From an uncultured Fodinibius sp. (GTDB lineage: Bacteria; Bacteroidota; Rhodothermia; Balneolales; Balneolaceae), in assembly GCA_913056455.1 (NCBI GenBank), contig CAJXMJ010000001.1, forward strand, positions 434,001 to 498,000: a stretch of DNA of 64,000 nt. The letters run 5' to 3'. A program made the translations under genes and the position numbers. The notes under the pieces are model-generated. The model was not told the DNA's origin and made no database searches. It was given only the letters and a program-made list of their open reading frames with translations. Each line of letters begins with the position of its first letter. Within the stretch, counting starts at the first letter, position 1. This document shows positions 47,952 through 61,302 of this stretch, in pieces.

Positions 47952-48806
47952 GTGGCTAGAAGTTCAGGTATTTCTACTCGAGAATCAGAATCTCTCGACC
48001 GCTACTTACAAGAGATAGGAAAAGAAAAGCTTATTACTCCCGAAGACGAGGTTAGGCTTGCCAAAGAGATACAAAAGGGCAGCCAAAAAGCACTTGAAGA
48101 TTTAACGAAAGCAAACCTTCGTTTTGTGGTTTCTGTTGCAAAACAGTATCAAAACCAAGGTCTTTCACTGGGTGACCTTATTAATGAAGGAAATCTCGGT
48201 TTGATCAAAGCCGCCAAGCGTTTTGATGAAACTCGTGGTTTTAAGTTTATTTCCTATGCCGTTTGGTGGATTCGTCAGTCTATATTGCAGGCATTAGCTG
48301 AGCAAAGTCGTATTGTACGCTTGCCATTGAACCGCGTGGGTGCGCTTAACAAGATTGGTAAGGAACTTTCTAAGTTGGAGCAGGAGTACGAACGTGTTCC
48401 ATCAGCCGCCGAGCTTGCTGAAAGTTTGGATATGACGGTGTCGGAAGTTGCTGATACATTGAAAATTTCCGGTCGGCACCTTTCTGTGGATGCGCCATTC
48501 GCTCAGGGCGAAGACAATCGACTGCTCGATGTACTTGAAAATGAAGAAACTCCTGATCCGGATACGGACCTGATGGGAGAATCGCTCAAGGTTGAAATTG
48601 AGCGTGCCCTTTCAAAGCTAACCAATCGGGAAGCAGAGGTTATTCGTCTTTATTTCGGTATTGGTCGAGAACACTCGTTAACACTCGAAGAAATTGGAGA
48701 ACGATTTGATCTTACCCGCGAACGTGTTCGCCAGATTAAAGAAAAAGCACTCCGCAAGTTGCGTCATCATAACAGAAGTGCAGCGCTGCGTGCTTATTTA
48801 GGATAA
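47952..48806 (+). CDS. rpoD: RNA polymerase primary sigma factor, short Bacteroidota type
   Basis: The 284-residue sigma-70 factor starts with GTG at 47952. It has region 1.2 ([20 protein letters not shown]), regions 2.1-2.4 ([20 protein letters not shown], then [19 protein letters not shown]), region 3, and region 4.2 ([20 protein letters not shown]). The N-terminal region 1.1 and the long non-conserved insert of E. coli RpoD are absent. This is normal for the housekeeping sigma of Bacteroidota and agrees with the TTG/TAnnTTTG promoters in this window. A strong terminator follows. Confidence 0.93.
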
Positions 48807-48925: not shown

Positions 48926-51787
48926 ATGAAAAAGGGAATCAGCGTATTTTTACTACTTCTTGTGACCTCTGCCGTCGTTGAGGCACAGACATACCCTTTT
49001 CGCACGTATTCTATTGAAAACGGGTTGAGTGAGTCGGTTGTTAATACGATGACGCAAGATCAGGATGGTTATCTGTGGATCGGTACAGGCTATGGCTTAA
49101 ATCGTTTTGATGGTATAGGATTTAAAAACTATTACGTTGAGGACGGGTTGCTTAATAATAGCATACAATCACTTTATGCGGATCAAAAAAATCAGCTTTG
49201 GATTGGCACCGAAGGTGGTGTGAATATTATGAAAAAAGATAGTATTCATACTATACTGGAGCTGCAGCCCCTGAAATCAAGTTCGATTTTATCAATCTAT
49301 AAAGACAGTCGGAATGAGTTTTGGTTCACAACAGATGGTGAGGGGGTTTGGCACTGGGATCGTAGCCAACAGCTGACGCAGTATCGAGAAGTACATGGGA
49401 TGGGTAGCAATCGGGTTCGGGATGTTCTTGAAGATCAAGAAGGGATAATTTGGTTTGCTACGCGTGACGGGCTCACTAAGCTGGAGGACGGCAATTTTAG
49501 AACCTTCACAACTCGACATGGATTGCCGGATAATAGACTTAGAGATCTTGCCTTAACTACTGATGGGGTTCTCTGGATTGCCAGCAGGGGCGGTCTATGT
49601 GCGATTAATGATGAGGAATTTAGGTGTTTTACCGAGGAGGATGGCTTAATTAATAATCGAGTTCAATCTATATCTGTAGATGAGAAGAATAATTTATGGT
49701 TGGGGACAGAAGAGGGTGCAAGCTATTTTTCTGAGGACGAATTTAAAAACTATTCGGTTGATGAAGGACTTACCAATGATATTATTTATACAACTTATTA
49801 CGATATCGAAGGTAATATCTGGGTTGGCACTTTTGGCGGTGGCATTAGCATGTTCATGGGAGATCAGATCCAGAACTATACCATAGAAAATGGATTACCT
49901 AATAATGTCGTAACATCTATTGTGGAGGGACAGTCGGGACAGTACTGGGTATCAACCTATGGCGGCGGTATTACAAGCATTAACAATAATACGCTTGAAA
50001 CTTATAATACCTCGGACGGTTTAGTTGATAATAAAGTTTATACCCTGGAAACGGATGTTCAAAATCGTTTGCTAATTGGAACCCGTTGGGGATTGAGTAT
50101 TTTCGAAAATAGTACATTTGAAAACATTGATGAAGACGACTTACCGGGCCGGAAGATAAGGGCTATTTTGCCTATTAACGATCAGAATGAAATCTGGATT
50201 GGAACTTATGAAGAAGGAATTATTCAGTATCGGGAGGGCACGGTTAACCATATTACCGAATCTGATGGTTTGCCCAATAATACTGTAATGGCTCTTGAGG
50301 AAAGCAATGACGGTGCTATTTGGGCTGCTACCTATGGTGGGTTAAGTCGTTTGCAAAATAATTCTTTTACAAATTACACTATTGATGATGGGTTACCCCA
50401 CAACGGTATTTTAGATATTTTAATAGATAAAGATTGGAATTTATGGGTGACGACTTTTGGCGGCATTGCCCGTTTTGCTGATGATAGTTTTGAAACAATA
50501 ACTCCGGAAGATGGGCTGCCCGGAGAGGTCTGTTATTTTATTGAACAGGATGATCGGGGCATTTTCTGGATTGGTACAAATAAGGGGGTTGTTCGATTTG
50601 ATTATCAGGCCTATCAGTCAAAGAATGAGGATACGGAGGAGCAGTTTTTTCGACTGCTTACTACAGATCAGGGGATTACATCTAACGAAATGAATGCCGG
50701 CGCCTCATTTAAAGATAAACGCGGGCGACTTTGGTTTGGATCAGTAGGTGGGGTATCCGTTTTTGATCCGTCAAAAGAGAAGATCAGCAATGTATCTCCT
50801 AAAGTGCATATAGAAAATGTCAGTGTATCCGGTGAACGGGTTTCAATTAAAGAACCGCTTGATATCGGTAGTAACAATCACAATATCACATTTGAGTTTA
50901 TTGGCATTAGCTTCACCGCTCCTCACCAAATGAAATATCGCTATCGGTTAAAAAATTCGAATGAAGGATGGCAGGAAACAACCCAGTCATCGGTTCGGTA
51001 TTCTGCGCTAATGCCTGGAGATTATACTTTTGAGGTGAAAGCACGTAATTTTAATGGAAAATGGAGTCCGGAACCTGCTCAAATTAGCTTTGCGGTGCAG
51101 GCTCCATTTTGGTTGCGGTGGTGGTTTATTGCATTGGTTGTTATTACGCTGGCAGGTATAATTCTCTTTATATATAACTACTATCGCGTTAAAAAAATGG
51201 TAGAAATGGAAAGGATGCGCGTACAAATTGCCAGTGATCTTCATGATGATGTGGGATCAGCTCTAACAGAGATTGCGCTACAGTCTGATTTTCTGCAAAC
51301 AATGGAGGTGCCGGATAACCTCGAAGAATCCCTAAAACAAATTGGTGTACAAAGTAGGAAAATAGTCTCCAGCCTTGATGATATCGTATGGTCTATTGAT
51401 GCTCGAAATGATACCATTGGAGATCTGACGGATCGGATGCAGGACTACGTAAATAATGTATTATCAGACCGAAAAGTATTTTATGAATTTGATTGTGATA
51501 TGCAGCAACAGCTTGATGTGTCAGTGAAGGAAAACCTGTATCTGATATTCAAGGAGTCGGTAAATAATATTGCTAAGCATTCCAACGCCGAGCGTGTAAA
51601 TGTAACATTAGTTGCTGATAACAGTGGGTTTACTATGGGTATTAAAGATAATGGGCCTGGAGTTTCTGGATCTCGAAAAAGTGGACAGGGATTACGAAAT
51701 ATGAAGATGCGAGCGAAACGAATTAATGCAGAAATTACATTTAATGATAAGAATGGTTTTGAAGTGATCATTGAGAATCGTAAATAA
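48926..51787 (+). CDS. Sensor histidine kinase with two-component regulator propeller (Reg_prop) domains
   Basis: The 953-residue membrane kinase has a signal peptide (VFLLLLVTSAVVEA). About 14 repeats of roughly 41 residues span residues 25-600, each with a core like GNLWVGTFGGGI and a turn like DGLPNN, making two seven-bladed beta-propellers. A Y_Y_Y domain (residues about 645-720, KYRYRLKNSNEGWQE) and a membrane helix near 728-750 follow. The HisKA_3 dimerisation domain has phospho-acceptor H773 in SDLHDDVGSALTEIALQ, and an HATPase ends with KDNGPGVSG and GLRNMKMRA. It senses an extracytoplasmic ligand and signals to the regulator 39 bp downstream. Unlike Bacteroides hybrid sensors, its receiver is separate. 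Confidence 0.92.
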   Translation: MKKGISVFLLLLVTSAVVEAQTYPFRTYSIENGLSESVVNTMTQDQDGYLWIGTGYGLNRFDGIGFKNYYVEDGLLNNSIQSLYADQKNQLWIGTEGGVNIMKKDSIHTILELQPLKSSSILSIYKDSRNEFWFTTDGEGVWHWDRSQQLTQYREVHGMGSNRVRDVLEDQEGIIWFATRDGLTKLEDGNFRTFTTRHGLPDNRLRDLALTTDGVLWIASRGGLCAINDEEFRCFTEEDGLINNRVQSISVDEKNNLWLGTEEGASYFSEDEFKNYSVDEGLTNDIIYTTYYDIEGNIWVGTFGGGISMFMGDQIQNYTIENGLPNNVVTSIVEGQSGQYWVSTYGGGITSINNNTLETYNTSDGLVDNKVYTLETDVQNRLLIGTRWGLSIFENSTFENIDEDDLPGRKIRAILPINDQNEIWIGTYEEGIIQYREGTVNHITESDGLPNNTVMALEESNDGAIWAATYGGLSRLQNNSFTNYTIDDGLPHNGILDILIDKDWNLWVTTFGGIARFADDSFETITPEDGLPGEVCYFIEQDDRGIFWIGTNKGVVRFDYQAYQSKNEDTEEQFFRLLTTDQGITSNEMNAGASFKDKRGRLWFGSVGGVSVFDPSKEKISNVSPKVHIENVSVSGERVSIKEPLDIGSNNHNITFEFIGISFTAPHQMKYRYRLKNSNEGWQETTQSSVRYSALMPGDYTFEVKARNFNGKWSPEPAQISFAVQAPFWLRWWFIALVVITLAGIILFIYNYYRVKKMVEMERMRVQIASDLHDDVGSALTEIALQSDFLQTMEVPDNLEESLKQIGVQSRKIVSSLDDIVWSIDARNDTIGDLTDRMQDYVNNVLSDRKVFYEFDCDMQQQLDVSVKENLYLIFKESVNNIAKHSNAERVNVTLVADNSGFTMGIKDNGPGVSGSRKSGQGLRNMKMRAKRINAEITFNDKNGFEVIIENRK

Positions 51788-51826: not shown

Positions 51827-52462
51827 ATGACACCAGTTGTAGGAATTGTTGAAGACAATAAAAAAATACGGGATCTAATACAGCGCTATCTGGATATGCA
51901 GGACGGCCTATCGTGTCCTGTTGCGGTGGATTCGGTTGAGGATATGCTGGATTATCTGGAGGAACACCCGTTGCCAGATGTTATTTTGATGGACATCCAA
52001 CTGCCCGGTATGTCGGGTATAAAGGGCATAAGCCTTATCAAAGAAGAGTATGAGGATATAGATATTATCATGCTTACGGTATATCACGATTCCCACAAAA
52101 TATTTAATGCTTTGCGGGCCGGTGCCTCGGGATATCTGTTGAAGCACACCTCACTGCCGGAGATTAAGGAGTCTATTTTAAAGCTTTTAGACGGGGGAGC
52201 CCCTATGTCGCCCCAAATTGCGCGCAAAGTAATTAACCATTTTCAGGAGAATACTCCCAAAAAGAATGCAGATTCTGATCTGACTCCACGCGAGCATGAT
52301 ATCGTTAATGGACTTGTAGACGGATTGAGCTACAAAATGATTGCCGATCGATATGACATTTCCATTGATACCGTTCGTGCCCATATCCGTAATATTTATA
52401 AGAAGCTGCACGTTAATTCTAAGGCGGAAGTCATTGCCAAATCACTAAAGGGAGAAATTTAA
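51827..52462 (+). CDS. NarL/LuxR-family response regulator
   Basis: The 211-residue cytoplasmic regulator has a receiver domain: acidic E9-D10, phosphoacceptor D56 in VILMDIQLPGMSG, Thr in IIMLTVYHD, and Lys in GYLLKHTSLPEI. A LuxR-type helix-turn-helix follows at about 148-205 (LTPREHDIVNGLVDGLSYKM, IADRYDISIDTVRAHIRNIY). It is the partner of the preceding kinase. Its likely targets include the two genes that follow, which is inference from order. Confidence 0.94.
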   Translation: MTPVVGIVEDNKKIRDLIQRYLDMQDGLSCPVAVDSVEDMLDYLEEHPLPDVILMDIQLPGMSGIKGISLIKEEYEDIDIIMLTVYHDSHKIFNALRAGASGYLLKHTSLPEIKESILKLLDGGAPMSPQIARKVINHFQENTPKKNADSDLTPREHDIVNGLVDGLSYKMIADRYDISIDTVRAHIRNIYKKLHVNSKAEVIAKSLKGEI

Positions 52463-52581
52463 TAACTTCCGTCGCATGAATATGTGATTGAATGCAACGA
52501 TGCTGCTTAATACTATTGTTATAGACAATAACAGAAGTAGCTAATTTCTTCTGCCAATTTGGGTAAAATACGGAGTCTATT

Positions 52582-53856
52582 ATGAAATTTTTCAAAGTGT
52601 TTATAATCACCCTGTTAGCACTTTTTCTTACCGGTTGCTATACGCAGCTTCAGTACAGCCAAACCATGAAAAAGGTTACGGATGAGAAACCCGCAAGTGA
52701 TACGCCCGTTTATTCTTGGAGTGGAGAAGAGGAGGCTGATTCCTCAAAGAATAATACGAATGAGGGGGTAGCAGAGGCAAAAAATAAGCAAGAAAAAATA
52801 AACGACTACATTCCAGTCTATTATAAAGATTATGAATATGCCACTAAATATGGCAATGTCTACAACTTTTATGGTGATGACTGGTATGGTTACAACTCTT
52901 TTTATTCGAATCATCCCTTTAGTTATGATCGCTGGGCATTCCACAGCTTATATGGACGCTGGTATGATCGACCTCATTATGGGATTTCGTTTACTCTAAG
53001 TTGGGGATGGCCGAGTTATCATTATGGTTATTATGATCCGTTCTATGATCCCTATTATCATGAATATTATTGGCACCGATATTACAGCAGATATGCTTAT
53101 GGATACGGGTATTGGAATTTTTACGGAAAATCCGGATTTGGGTATGGATATTATTCCGATGACAAAGTAAGAGAGAATAACAGGAATGTCCGATATGGTC
53201 CGCGTTCTATTGGTACAAACCGAGTTGCTTCGGATAGAAATAGAACCAGGACGGTTAATAGTGATCGGTCAACTGCGGTAACCAATCGTACATCATCAAC
53301 TGTTCGTACCCGATCTGTAGGAACAACCCGCACCCGGGGTACTTCCGGTCGTTCATCGGTGAACCGCACAAAAAACAGAGACAACGGTTCTTCAAGTAGA
53401 AGCCGCACGAGGGGGCAGGATCAAATAAATGAGAGCCAAACAAGTCGGTATGATTATCGCAACAGAGGTGACGAGATACCGCTTGTCATTGATGAAAAAC
53501 AGTTGGAACAGATTCGAGCTCGAATCAGAGATAATAATAGAAATAACAGTATTTATCGTTCTCGCATAAATAACGACAGAGAGAGAACAACATTCTTCAA
53601 TAGGATGAAGAACTTCTTCGAACAAAACAGCAGTCGCTTTACGAATGGAAATAATGGGCGAACTTTGCGTAGCAGAAGCAACTCCCCATCTACCAGAAGA
53701 TCAAAGATAAATCGAAGCTCGAGCAGTAACAATCGCAGTTCGGTGACAAAAAGTAAATCGTCGTCCAGTAATTCACGCTCTCGGGGCAGTAGTTCTTCCC
53801 GAAGCCGAAGCGACGATAGCGGTTCATCAGGTTCCGATAGAAGTCGCGGTAATTAA
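52582..53856 (+). CDS. Low-complexity lipoprotein: Tyr/Gly/Trp-rich middle, Arg/Ser/Asn-rich basic tail
   Basis: The 424-residue protein has a lipoprotein signal ending LFLTGC and an acidic/polar spacer to about residue 75. Residues about 80-195 are extraordinarily rich in Tyr, Trp, Gly and His (YYDPFYDPYYHEYYWHRYY, RYAYGYGYWNFYGKSGFGYG). The remaining 230 residues are dominated by Arg, Ser, Asn and Thr with SRSRG-like runs and a short helical patch near 290-325. It has no cysteine after the lipobox and almost no aliphatic residues in the tail. I recognise no domain. An exported basic, aromatic-rich surface protein could bind anionic polymers such as DNA or polysaccharide, but that is only inference. 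Confidence 0.8.
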   Translation: MKFFKVFIITLLALFLTGCYTQLQYSQTMKKVTDEKPASDTPVYSWSGEEEADSSKNNTNEGVAEAKNKQEKINDYIPVYYKDYEYATKYGNVYNFYGDDWYGYNSFYSNHPFSYDRWAFHSLYGRWYDRPHYGISFTLSWGWPSYHYGYYDPFYDPYYHEYYWHRYYSRYAYGYGYWNFYGKSGFGYGYYSDDKVRENNRNVRYGPRSIGTNRVASDRNRTRTVNSDRSTAVTNRTSSTVRTRSVGTTRTRGTSGRSSVNRTKNRDNGSSSRSRTRGQDQINESQTSRYDYRNRGDEIPLVIDEKQLEQIRARIRDNNRNNSIYRSRINNDRERTTFFNRMKNFFEQNSSRFTNGNNGRTLRSRSNSPSTRRSKINRSSSSNNRSSVTKSKSSSSNSRSRGSSSSRSRSDDSGSSGSDRSRGN

Positions 53857-57372: not shown

Positions 57373-58494
57373 TCAGAACCAGCCCTTACGTTTAAAGAAG
57401 AAAATCATGATTATTGCAAGAACTCCCATTATGCCGAGCGATGCAGGATAACCCCAATACCAGCTAAGTTCGGGCATGTTATACGGACTTGCGCCGGGAT
57501 CAAAATTCATCCCGTAGATTCCTGCAACAAATGTCAACGGAATAAAGATAGTGGCAATAATGGTAAGCACTTTCATTACTTCGTTCATCTTGTTGCTCAC
57601 GTGTGACATATACATATCATGCAACCCGAGAATCATGTCCCGATAATTTTCGATGTTATCGATTACCTGGATCATGTGATCGTATACATCACGGAGATAT
57701 ATTTTAGTGCTGTCATTTATAAATTGTGATTCATTTCTTATTGCTGTATTGATGGCATCACGAAGAGGCCATACCGACTTTCGGAAGAAGATAATTTCAC
57801 GCCTGATTTTATGAATTTGTTCCAGCAGATGGTCTTCGGGATCATTCAATAGCTCATCTTCAAGCCGTTCAATATCATCTGCTATATGTTCGATAATATT
57901 AAAATAGTAATCCACGACAGTATCAACTAAAGCATACGTCAGGTAGTCGGTGCTGTGCTTTCGGATGCGTGATCCTTTTATTGCCAGACGGTCAATAATG
58001 GGCTTGAAATGATCAGCATCAGTTTCTTGAAATGACAGAACATAATTGTTACCAAGTACAATGCTTATTTGTTCGGCCTGAATTTTTTGTTCCTCTTGGG
58101 AATAGGAAAGCAGGCGGAGGACAAAAAATATACAGTTGTCATAGACTTCTACTTTGGGGCGCTGTGCTGTATGAACAATATCTTCTTGAATTAGCGGATG
58201 AAGTTCAAAGAAATTCCAGATTGATTTTAACTTCTCGGTGTCATGCAGCCCTCGTACTTGTACCCAGGTTTTTGAAGGTGCATCCAGATAAGGCTGTACC
58301 TTTTGGATTTTACTAATTGGAATATCGTTAATGCTTTCTTCATCATAGTCATGAACGGTAATTTCAACCTCGTCCATGTGTCGTTCACCGATATGTTCAA
58401 TAGTTCCTGGTGCTGTTCCAGGTTTTTTGCGATTACCTGCCTTACGAAATCTAATGCTTGGCAGCATGTTTTTTATCTTCCCCGAATTTGACAT
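57373..58494 (-). CDS. corA: CorA-family magnesium/cobalt transporter
   Basis: The 373-residue protein has a large cytoplasmic N-terminal domain, a long stalk helix and two C-terminal transmembrane helices. The selectivity motif GMN is present in VAGIYGMNFDPG, between helix 1 (VLTIIATIFIPLTF) and helix 2 (GYPASLGIMGVLAIIMIFFF), and the C-terminus is basic. It is a pentameric channel taking up Mg2+. It may be co-transcribed with the usp gene 54 bp downstream. Confidence 0.95.
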   Translation of the reverse strand: MSNSGKIKNMLPSIRFRKAGNRKKPGTAPGTIEHIGERHMDEVEITVHDYDEESINDIPISKIQKVQPYLDAPSKTWVQVRGLHDTEKLKSIWNFFELHPLIQEDIVHTAQRPKVEVYDNCIFFVLRLLSYSQEEQKIQAEQISIVLGNNYVLSFQETDADHFKPIIDRLAIKGSRIRKHSTDYLTYALVDTVVDYYFNIIEHIADDIERLEDELLNDPEDHLLEQIHKIRREIIFFRKSVWPLRDAINTAIRNESQFINDSTKIYLRDVYDHMIQVIDNIENYRDMILGLHDMYMSHVSNKMNEVMKVLTIIATIFIPLTFVAGIYGMNFDPGASPYNMPELSWYWGYPASLGIMGVLAIIMIFFFKRKGWF

Positions 58495-58580
58495 ATCAAT
58501 AGATATTTTTCTTTAAACAGTGGAGATAATATGGTCAAGCTGTAATCCTAAAACAAGTTGTAAAAGAAGGTGATGCTAAT

Positions 58581-58751
58581 TTATAAATGCTCAGAACTGC
58601 TTCTTTTTCTTAGGATCCAGTGGATGATAGGAGGTGCAATAAAGATGGCAACCACAATATTTCCTGTGTATTGATAGATTAAAACAGCTGCTAATATGCA
58701 TACTAAAAGTATGATCAGGGAGATCAAATTTGTTTTCTGCTTGATATCCAT
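58581..58751 (-). CDS. 56-residue membrane protein downstream of the ABC permease
   Basis: An ATG at 58751 opens 56 codons. The product has a short basic start (MDIKQKTN), two hydrophobic segments (LISLIILLVCILAAVLIY and NIVVAIFIAPPIIHWIL) split by QYTG, and a basic end. It begins 4 bp after the permease stop codon, so it is likely co-translated with that gene. It resembles the general form of small two-helix inner-membrane proteins. I do not recognise a family. Confidence 0.6.
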   Translation of the reverse strand: MDIKQKTNLISLIILLVCILAAVLIYQYTGNIVVAIFIAPPIIHWILRKRSSSEHL

Positions 58752-58755
58752 TGTT

Positions 58756-61302
58756 TTACGTAGCTTCTAGGCGCAAGACTTCAAGTGGAGTTTTCTTGTA
58801 TACACTTCGGCTGTTAAACATACCAATTAGAATGGTAAGTCCGGTAACGATTAACGTGCCCAATATGATAACCCAGAGGTTGGGAGTAAAGGTAATATCA
58901 AAATAGAAGTAGCCTAACAGCCAGGTAGCACCTACCGAAAGAATGAGACCCGTAAGTGCGGATAGAATCCCCAGGAAAAGATATTCCACCGACAGTATTT
59001 GGATGATCTGTTTCTTGCTGGCTCCTATGGTTCGCAGTAATACGCTTTCTTTGATACGCTGGAATCGACTGGTGGCCACTGAGCTGGCAAGGACGATGAG
59101 CCCGGTAATGATACTGAACAATGCCATAAACTGAACGGCAAACGAGATTTTATCTATAAACTGATTGATGGTCTCGAGGATTCGACTTACGTCAATAGCT
59201 GAAACATTGGGATATTTCTGAACTACAGCCTGTTGTACAGAGGCCGAAATTTCTTGATTGGGAGCCCGCGAAACGGTGACATAAATTTGTGGGGCAGGCT
59301 CTAAAACGCCGGTGGGAAAGAGCATAAAAAAGTTGGGTTGCACGCGCTGGAAGTCCACCTCCCGAATACTCCCCACAATTGCCTCAACCGGTACACCTTG
59401 TACATCAAAGGTAAGAGAATCACCAATAGCTAAATTGAGATCCTCGGAAATTTCCTTGGCCGCTGATACCGGCACTCGTCCCGTATCGGGCGCTTGCCCA
59501 ATCCATTCCCCTTTGAGCAGCGTTTCGGAATCAATGAGAGAGTCACGATAGGTAGATCGGTATTCTCTACGTAGCGCCCAGTCGTGTACGTTATTGGTAC
59601 TATCATCATCAATTGCTTGCGTACTGCGGCCGCGAAGTGAATCCAGGCGCATCGTAACCATGGGCACGTTTTGGAGAATAGGCACATTATTTTCTTTTAA
59701 AAGCTGATTGAGGCCTTCATTTTGATCGGGCTGAATATCAAAGAAAATGAGGTTTGGGGCGTCATCACGCGTAGCGAAATCGAGTTCCTCCATCAGCATA
59801 TCCTGGCTAAAGTAGAGCGTGCTGACCAGCAGCATCCCCAGTCCCAAAGAAAGCATGAGTGTTGTTGTTTGGTTGTGCGGGCGATATAAGTTTGCCAACC
59901 CCTGTCGCCAAACGTACGACCAGTGAGAGGGAAAAAATCGCCGAATAAGTTTGATCAATAACTTTGCGACCAGCCAAAGCAGCCCGAATGCAACGATCAT
60001 TCCGGCAGTAAATAAACCGCCAATAACCCAGTCGGAAGTCAGCAGAGTAGCATATCCCATAACAACAAGCGCTACGGCTACATAGATAATGGCTTTGGTC
60101 TTGTTTGAGAGCAGCGCCGTAATGGATCCCTCCATCGTACGCAGGGCATACAGTGGAGAGGCCTTGCGTAGTGCCAGGAGCGGTAGCAGGGCGAAAGCAA
60201 GGGCCACACCCGTACCGGTAAAGAGCCCGAGCCCAATGGCCAGCCACGAGGTTGTTAGTTCTACATTAACGGGAAGAAAATCACTGACCAAACCTGGTAA
60301 TAAATATTGTACACCTACCCCAATTACTGTGCCTGCAAGAGCTCCGAGGAATCCCAAGACAATCGATTGAATAAGAAAAATACTCATGGTCTGATTAGAG
60401 GAAGCTCCAAAACATCGAAGAACGGATGCTGTGCTAATCTTTTGGTTGATATACACATGGATGGAACTTGCTACACCTATGCCACCCAGCAACAAGGCAA
60501 TGAAGCCGACGAGATTCAGGAACTTACCGAGATTGGCAACAGCCTCACCGATTTCCTCGCGACGTTCTTCTACGGTTTCGGTATCGATATCGATGCCCAA
60601 GGCATCTTGCAAAGAGTCAACACGCGTTTCAATGGCATTCATGTCCCGCTCATCAGCAAAGCCAAAGTACTGTTTGTATTCCACCCGACTGCCGCGCTGT
60701 ATAAGATCTGTGGCCTCCAGCATTGAAGCAGGTATAAATACGCGCGGACCTACCATTGAGGCAGCTGCAGCCTCTCCCGGGACTTTTGTAATACCGCCTC
60801 CGATCGCAAACGTAACTTTACCGACTTTGATGGAATCGCCGACCTCAATATTAAATTGAGTCATCAGCGCCTGATCGACCAGTGCCGTGGTGTCTGTTTT
60901 AAAGGTTCGGGCTGCTTCTTTTGGGATGGTTTCAAGTGATCCGTAAAAGGGAAAGTTTCCTTTCAGTGCACGGACGTTAGCCAATCGGGTACTCCCGCTT
61001 TTGGGAAACAATACCATTGACGGAAACTCTGTAATGGTAGACTGTTCTCCGCCCAAGGTATCAAAATAAGCGGTGAGCGTATCGGGTGGAGGCTGCTCGG
61101 TTTCAATCTCGAGGTCGGCTCCCAGCAGCTCTTTTGATTGATTGTCAATTGTATTGTTGAGGCTGTCACGAAAGGAGGTAATTGCTACCTGTGCCGCCAC
61201 GCCGATAATAATGGCAGAAATGTAAACGAACAGTCGCTTTTTGTTGGATCGGGCATCGCGCCAGGCCATCTTCCATGACCATTTCGAAAAGAATGATGAC
61301 AT
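58756..61302 (-). CDS. FtsX-like ABC transporter permease (YbbP type)
   Basis: The 848-residue protein has one N-terminal helix, a large extracytoplasmic domain, three or more helices around residues 255-375, further helices near 400-480, a second extracytoplasmic domain and three final helices (720-840). The two halves each carry the FtsX/MacB-like fold, for example GFIALLLGGIGVASSIHVYI and SVLLRTIGASKKQIIQIL with its coupling helix. It pairs with the ATPase 24 bp upstream and with the neighbouring tesA-like gene, the same set as E. coli ybbP, ybbA and tesA. Such systems are thought to extract or export lipophilic molecules. Confidence 0.88.
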   Translation of the reverse strand: MSSFFSKWSWKMAWRDARSNKKRLFVYISAIIIGVAAQVAITSFRDSLNNTIDNQSKELLGADLEIETEQPPPDTLTAYFDTLGGEQSTITEFPSMVLFPKSGSTRLANVRALKGNFPFYGSLETIPKEAARTFKTDTTALVDQALMTQFNIEVGDSIKVGKVTFAIGGGITKVPGEAAAASMVGPRVFIPASMLEATDLIQRGSRVEYKQYFGFADERDMNAIETRVDSLQDALGIDIDTETVEERREEIGEAVANLGKFLNLVGFIALLLGGIGVASSIHVYINQKISTASVLRCFGASSNQTMSIFLIQSIVLGFLGALAGTVIGVGVQYLLPGLVSDFLPVNVELTTSWLAIGLGLFTGTGVALAFALLPLLALRKASPLYALRTMEGSITALLSNKTKAIIYVAVALVVMGYATLLTSDWVIGGLFTAGMIVAFGLLWLVAKLLIKLIRRFFPSHWSYVWRQGLANLYRPHNQTTTLMLSLGLGMLLVSTLYFSQDMLMEELDFATRDDAPNLIFFDIQPDQNEGLNQLLKENNVPILQNVPMVTMRLDSLRGRSTQAIDDDSTNNVHDWALRREYRSTYRDSLIDSETLLKGEWIGQAPDTGRVPVSAAKEISEDLNLAIGDSLTFDVQGVPVEAIVGSIREVDFQRVQPNFFMLFPTGVLEPAPQIYVTVSRAPNQEISASVQQAVVQKYPNVSAIDVSRILETINQFIDKISFAVQFMALFSIITGLIVLASSVATSRFQRIKESVLLRTIGASKKQIIQILSVEYLFLGILSALTGLILSVGATWLLGYFYFDITFTPNLWVIILGTLIVTGLTILIGMFNSRSVYKKTPLEVLRLEAT

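Follow-up and report, generated by a model that had tools for sequence, protein, structure and literature searches.

An aromatic-then-basic lipoprotein paired with a FadL-superfamily outer-membrane barrel across the Bacteroidota

A genome of an uncultured Fodinibius sp. encodes a lipoprotein in which an aromatic-rich region is followed by a basic tail, directly before an outer-membrane barrel of the FadL superfamily, here called OMP3. The pairing of the two has strong support across the phylum. The analysed window is a stretch of 64,000 nucleotides (C1:434001-498000 of the 3.28-Mb assembly), in which the barrel gene starts 42 bases downstream of the lipoprotein gene (Table 1). An aromatic-then-basic lipoprotein is encoded just upstream of 76 of 80 OMP3 barrels from Bacteroidota-type genomes, the barrel of the window not counted, and this near-constant adjacency indicates that the two probably work as a unit. 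We propose that the lipoprotein is a disordered accessory partner dedicated to OMP3, itself a third scaffold-type FadL barrel of the Bacteroidota, in a two-gene outer-membrane module, with docking on the barrel, a periplasmic tether and two-component control, and assign this reading a probability of roughly 0.42. A description of the lipoprotein-barrel pair was not found in a literature search that had most subscription journals outside its scope.

Table 1. Features of the lipoprotein-barrel locus, in coordinates of the window.
Feature	Coordinates	Strand	Evidence
RpoD-type sigma factor, conserved syntenic neighbour	47952..48806	+	synteny
Sensor histidine kinase, Reg_prop propeller and Y_Y_Y domain	48926..51787	+	found with the regulator in 35/35
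NarL/LuxR-type response regulator, adjacent upstream	51827..52462	+	Response_reg, GerE; in 35/49 loci tested
Palindromic box, candidate operator; consensus CACATGNNCATGTGATTG, here CGCATGAATATGTGATTG	52473..52490	+	conserved with the regulator gene
Inverted repeats TGTTAT/ATAACA and CAGAAG/CTTCTG	52517..52553	.	present, not conserved
Two-part low-complexity lipoprotein, 424 aa	52582..53856	+	ORF; relatives in 58/58 genomes of the order
Signal peptide and lipobox LTGC (residues 16-19), Cys19, C-Y-T-Q-L	52582..52638	+	alignment, 22 members
Acidic linker, residues 20-76	52639..52809	+	net charge -4 over 19-76
Aromatic region, residues 77-191, 28.7% Tyr	52810..53154	+	dN/dS 0.05-0.10
Basic Ser/Arg/Asn/Thr tail, residues 192-424, net +32	53155..53853	+	dN/dS 0.11-0.25
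OMP3, partner outer-membrane barrel, FadL superfamily, 496 aa	53899..55389	+	Toluene_X 8.1e-19; AlphaFold2 model; own clade

The protein has the signal peptide, lipobox and Cys of a bacterial lipoprotein (LTGC followed by YTQL). A preliminary description, made from the DNA letters, had presented it as an exported lipoprotein in which one low-complexity region follows another, and the coordinates, frame and lipobox given there are exact. The composition was measured. Residues 77-191 consist of Tyr (28.7%), Gly (11.3%), Trp (6.1%) and His (5.2%) to a large extent, and residues 195-424 of Ser (21.3%), Arg (20.0%), Asn (13.0%) and Thr (9.1%), while the net charge passes from -4 (residues 19-76) through -1 (77-191) to +32 (192-424). 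Among the 41 ORFs of at least 150 aa in the window, this ORF ranks first on all three composition measures, with values of 0.287 for Tyr in 115 aa (0.130 in the runner-up), 0.513 for YGWH (0.313) and 0.635 for RSNT in 230 aa (0.361).

Tandem repeats were not found under the lipoprotein ORF, its Ser and Arg codons are mixed, and each of its three regions has a dN/dS of 0.05-0.25 relative to three congeners. Thus, the composition is a property of the selected protein. Judged by these ratios, all three regions are under purifying selection. An origin of the tail from repeated DNA was rejected, given the lack of tandem repeats and the mixed Ser and Arg codons. Disorder analysis, a check suggested in the preliminary description, indicates that the lipoprotein is likely disordered: the AlphaFold2 model has a mean pLDDT of 44.6, which with only 22 aligned sequences falls short of proof. 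A short helix is predicted in the tail (residues 338-350, including TFFNRMKNFF) and is retained in many Balneolaceae. Searches of Pfam, NCBIfam, PHROGs and PDB sequences gave no match above threshold, and the phmmer search of PDB sequences returned nothing beyond amphiphysin (E 0.38) and a designed protein (E 1.9). The lipoprotein is covered by no Pfam or NCBIfam model, and is therefore probably carried as 'hypothetical' in most genome annotations.

The preliminary description had drawn attention to SR-like repeats and to a composition known to favour phase separation or nucleic-acid binding. The count of SR and RS dipeptides (26, with 19.7 expected from composition, P 0.06) indicates that the repeats are mostly a reflection of composition. 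We consider a phase-separating or nucleic-acid-binding tail very improbable. Such a role would suit an aromatic, Arg-rich and probably disordered protein, but this one is exported, lipid-anchored and paired with an outer-membrane barrel, and its SR dipeptides are not clearly in excess. The analysis gives the proposal no support, and the envelope location and near-constant barrel neighbour point elsewhere.

The gene order of the window recurs in 21 fetched relatives (L044 is without the kinase and regulator, and in L047 the barrel is at a contig end). At the level of the order and below, barrel profile A1 matches 58/58 genomes and the N-terminal lipoprotein profile A3 matches 54/58; in the remaining four (L050-L053), direct reading of the gene identified a GCYTQ lipoprotein before the barrel. 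Further barrels were fetched from other orders of the class and from other classes, and the gene before each was read. The set comprises 81 loci, of which L047 and L089 yield no barrel row (contig ends). One overlapping 20.6-bit ORF in L036 was left out, and the neighbours in L050, L081, L090 and L095 were assigned by direct reading of the loci. The lipoprotein lies one gene further upstream in L095 and L097, with a small lipoprotein or ORF in between. Three of the 80 barrels (L079, L082 and L105) are without such a lipoprotein neighbour. L079 was counted as lacking, its upstream row being a short non-aromatic ORF, and the genome in question (G141) encodes a profile-matching lipoprotein on another contig (G141:C14:78339-78959, locus L167, E 7.9e-18). 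Upstream of the L101 barrel is an aromatic-rich neighbour with no lipobox; this counterpart (L101 3914-5029) has a signal peptide and keeps the aromatic-then-polar order.

Two barrels are encoded in five genomes, and in four of these (L067, L158, L159 and L160) the arrangement is lipoprotein-barrel-lipoprotein-barrel, in tandem. In L161 (1046-4543) the barrel alone is duplicated, and this is the only double-barrel genome of the five without a second lipoprotein.

Other genes adjoin the pair or lie nearby in some lineages. In other classes, a predicted envelope protein of about 257 aa is encoded directly upstream of the lipoprotein (L090 4320-5099, L092 4531-5304, L093 4682-5452, L094 2787-3563, L096 3494-4267 and L109 2632-3411), for which Pfam gave only sub-threshold YjbH matches, in three of the four proteins scanned. 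Many relatives (e.g., L028, L029, L031, L032, L037 and L038) have a lipoprotein-like gene of about 227 aa with a glycine-rich SKTAKGGTIGAGA stretch, adjoining a 373-aa gene homologous to 57373-58494; the space at this place in the window (58494-58756) is only 262 bases.

We compared 77 lipoproteins, including that of the window, picked by a script from position and a lipobox rule, with those of L050, L081, L090, L095 and L097 added by hand. The sequences diverge almost past recognition, but the order from anchor to aromatic region to basic tail is kept in all of them: in 77/77 the aromatic peak comes before that of Arg/Ser, and in 77/77 the C-terminal 150 residues carry a net positive charge. 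Within Balneolales (22 aligned rows), G18, C19, Y20, T21 and R208 are the sole invariant residues. The mature protein starts with CYT in 68/77 across the phylum; the other nine, all of Bacteroidia type (a label assigned from gene content), start with CST, CGS, CAT and similar. At least two Arg or Lys are present among the last eight residues in 73/77, with RSRGN in close relatives. The tail is kept in 11/11 congeners, so the loss in closely related strains that the preliminary description had named as a possible refutation was not seen. Functionless drift of low-complexity sequence would account for the very fast turnover (19-44% identity to most members beyond the closest congeners), but we give it next to no credence in view of the low dN/dS in every region, the lack of DNA repeats and the invariant order of composition.

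At least 30% Tyr, Trp, Phe and His in a 100-aa window was recorded for 74 of the 595 ORFs of at least 200 aa in the compared loci, and every one of the 74 is the lipoprotein gene or, in L101, its positional counterpart. The preliminary description had called the composition rare, which is true within the genome; across the phylum it is the rule beside OMP3. A lipoprotein profile from the class Rhodothermia matches some Bacteroidia forms (L106 1.9e-11, L108 9.2e-7 and L107 2e-5), and L102, L103 and L100 were absent from its matches. Because of this partial matching and the Bacteroidia starts other than CYT, position and composition carry part of the argument that all forms descend from a common ancestor. 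By sequence, the relatives of the window belong to Fodinibius (formerly Aliifodinibius) of the Balneolota, and a scan of genome contigs for relatives gave two congeners only. The lipoprotein is a phylum-wide family and not an oddity of a single strain.

OMP3 is a member of the FadL superfamily by its Toluene_X match (8.1e-19, 67.8 bits with a cut-off of 29.7). Its AlphaFold2 model has a mean pLDDT of 86.8, and the N-P-A hatch residues (N65 P66 A67) are invariant. Foldseek with this model returns first the B. thetaiotaomicron BamG (9hiv_F, 3.9e-18) and then FadL mutants from 2.9e-17, whereas VIA places CymD, TbuX and TodX first (Z 33-32); BamG chains score 28-29, and the type IX translocon chain that forms a barrel, which we take to be PorV, scores about 25. 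As the two rankings differ, structure does not decide among FadL, BamG and PorV. On the model, the alignments of three BamG chains start at residues 30, 31 and 34 and that of PorV at 31, whereas most FadL alignments start at 37-38. An N-terminal extension of about ten residues relative to FadL distinguishes BamG, according to the accessible part of the published account (PMC12578637); the extension predicted for OMP3 fits the BamG kind and is common also to PorV.

In a tree of 71 rows (OMP3 45, BamG 10, FadL 9 and PorV 7), each of the four groups forms one clade with support of at least 98/95, and of 100/99 for FadL and for OMP3. The OMP3 rows were gathered by the A1 profile, so the unity of their clade is partly by choice, which does not apply to its separation from the other three; rows were assigned to PorV on visual inspection of their N-termini. 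A BamG profile (A4), built from the gene matching a solved BamG (9n2d_B, 6.4e-120), finds BamG in 12/12 genomes searched, here at C2:477254-478351 (1.2e-30). From the separate clades and the separate BamG gene we conclude that OMP3 is neither BamG nor a canonical FadL. Identity with BamG was rejected because in each of the 12 genomes the gene picked out by the BamG profile is not that of OMP3, because the clades are distinct and because an OMP3 of another Bacteroidota family gave no PDB sequence match. Membership of canonical FadL by tree grouping was rejected because OMP3 falls outside, in a clade of its own. The match of OMP3 to the PorV/PorQ model of NCBIfam (NF033709) is under the cut-off (27.2 bits, cut-off 90).

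These results bear on two other functions for the pair. If OMP3 were BamG or BamG-like and the lipoprotein a BAM subunit, the pair would be part of outer-membrane protein assembly. This is improbable: BamG is the best Foldseek match, but the VIA scores do not favour it, the true BamG is encoded elsewhere in the genome, and such a lipoprotein is not among the purified BAM subunits given in the accessible parts of two studies (PMC12578637 and PMC12611786). Alternatively, OMP3 may transport hydrophobic compounds in the manner of FadL or TodX, with the lipoprotein as a capture or hand-off partner whose Tyr/Trp region binds an aromatic or lipid ligand and whose basic tail keeps it near the membrane or cell wall. 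We regard this as possible, if on balance unlikely. OMP3 shares the fold, the hatch motif and the Pfam family (PF03349) of FadL, TodX and TbuX, and the strength of the Toluene_X match and the leading VIA positions agree with transport. However, BamG and PorV have the same fold and do not transport, OMP3 has an N-terminal extension of the BamG kind, the FadL rows form a separate clade (the canonical FadL of the source genome is at C5:29956), and a lipoprotein that keeps its composition and not its sequence would be unexpected if it formed a ligand site.

The gap before the lipoprotein gene, aligned in eight genomes, contains a single conserved block, the palindrome CACATGNNCATGTG followed by ATTG. 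By tblastn, the kinase and regulator are present in 35 loci and absent in 13 and in L062, which was left out of the box count (the contig begins at the gene). With up to three mismatches and within 150 bases of the start, the box was identified in 31/35 loci with the regulator and in 2/13 without it (shuffled mean 2.2/35); with up to two mismatches the counts are 23/35 and 1/13. The exact sequence CRCATGNNYATGTGATTG occurs once in the source genome, and CACATGNNCATGTGATTG with three mismatches allowed has 22 genome matches, compared with 8 for the reversed control. The palindrome makes a good candidate for the operator to which the adjacent regulator would bind. The kinase-regulator pair appears as a lineage-specific addition, with no locus match in L044, L054-L061, L063, L068, L163 and L164. 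The RpoD-type sigma factor is probably outside the function of the module.

The inverted repeats that the preliminary description had noted before the gene are exactly where it placed them, but they are not conserved, being recognisable by eye in one of seven relatives (L029). Three 6-bp repeats in a gap of 119 bp have a chance probability of about 0.03. These repeats were rejected as regulator sites, since they are unconserved and the conserved element is the palindrome at 52473-52490.

A module with the lipoprotein docked on the barrel is suggested by three findings: the two genes are paired, they are duplicated together, and the mature N-terminus is conserved. We predict that the lipid anchor and the mature N-terminus (CYT-Q-L) would dock on OMP3 as the BamH N-terminus does on BamG, with the aromatic stretch in contact with either the barrel or the membrane. 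The tail, which is long, flexible and strongly basic, would extend on the periplasmic side and could serve to tether the barrel or hold it in position by binding anionic peptidoglycan or lipid. Control of the module in Balneolaceae probably lies with the two-component system encoded next to it, acting via the palindrome. To what was computed (the pairing, the constraint, the order of composition, the separate clade and the co-occurring box), this proposal adds physical contact, a periplasmic side, tethering and regulator binding, all of which we infer. The gene order may also reflect co-regulation alone, with no contact between the lipoprotein and OMP3.

The side of the membrane was assessed with a criterion for surface export, two acidic residues among the first six after the Cys, taken from the accessible part of PMC12578637. 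At least two acidic residues were found at these positions in 0/77 lipoproteins (65 have none and 12 have one). On these grounds the tail is placed in the periplasm, by rules set in other classes, and the lipoprotein probably faces the periplasm. The contrary view, that it is on the cell surface as a flexible aromatic and basic coat beside the barrel with a role in adhesion or in the binding of LPS, polysaccharide or extracellular DNA, is doubtful. Many Bacteroidota lipoproteins are exposed, as far as the accessible parts of PMC12578637 and PMC12853789 go, and there are acidic residues further along the chain (residues 19-76), but no member has the two-residue export signal.

The proposed module has its nearest parallel in BamG-BamH, in which a FadL-superfamily barrel with an N-terminal extension also works with a lipoprotein (accessible portions of PMC12611786 and PMC12578637); in the latter portion, BamG2-BamH2 is given as a putative operon. 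BamH is a structured lipoprotein of the cell surface whose Cys is followed by acidic residues. Unlike that system, BamG belongs to another clade and is another gene here, and the lipoprotein of the window is predicted to be disordered and is without acidic residues after the Cys. The BSAP-1 receptor of Bacteroides fragilis is a FadL-family barrel of Bacteroidales, its own function unproven; it differs in having a predicted extracellular domain, going by the accessible text of PMC12853789. PorV of type IX secretion resembles OMP3 as a FadL-superfamily barrel that is not a plain transporter, with the translocon chains at the VIA score given above, but it forms a separate clade and the source genome has a PorV-like gene of its own. 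We know of no Tyr-rich lipoprotein partner of PorV. RcsF of E. coli is a lipoprotein with a disordered basic stretch that works with outer-membrane barrels. The match of the present lipoprotein to RcsF is under the cut-off and confined to the signal region (residues 6-37; NCBIfam NF008048, 12.8 bits with a cut-off of 140, E 0.095).

A further-reaching possibility, speculative and in our view unlikely, is that, in addition to BamG-BamH and PorV, the outer membrane of the Bacteroidota type has a third and so far unrecognised scaffold system, made up of OMP3 and its disordered lipoprotein. The aromatic region would be a 'lock' in or under the barrel and the tail a basic periplasmic arm, selected for composition and not for sequence, that ties the barrel to peptidoglycan or, in Balneolaceae, reports its state to the adjacent kinase. 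The outer membrane of the Bacteroidota type is unlike that of E. coli, and BamG and PorV are parts of machines and not transporters. A third FadL-type clade, phylum-wide and tied to a lipoprotein that keeps its composition, would, if the proposal is true, be a further piece of this outer-membrane machinery. The lipoprotein also offers a clear-cut example from nature of an exported and probably disordered protein whose composition and order are under selection.
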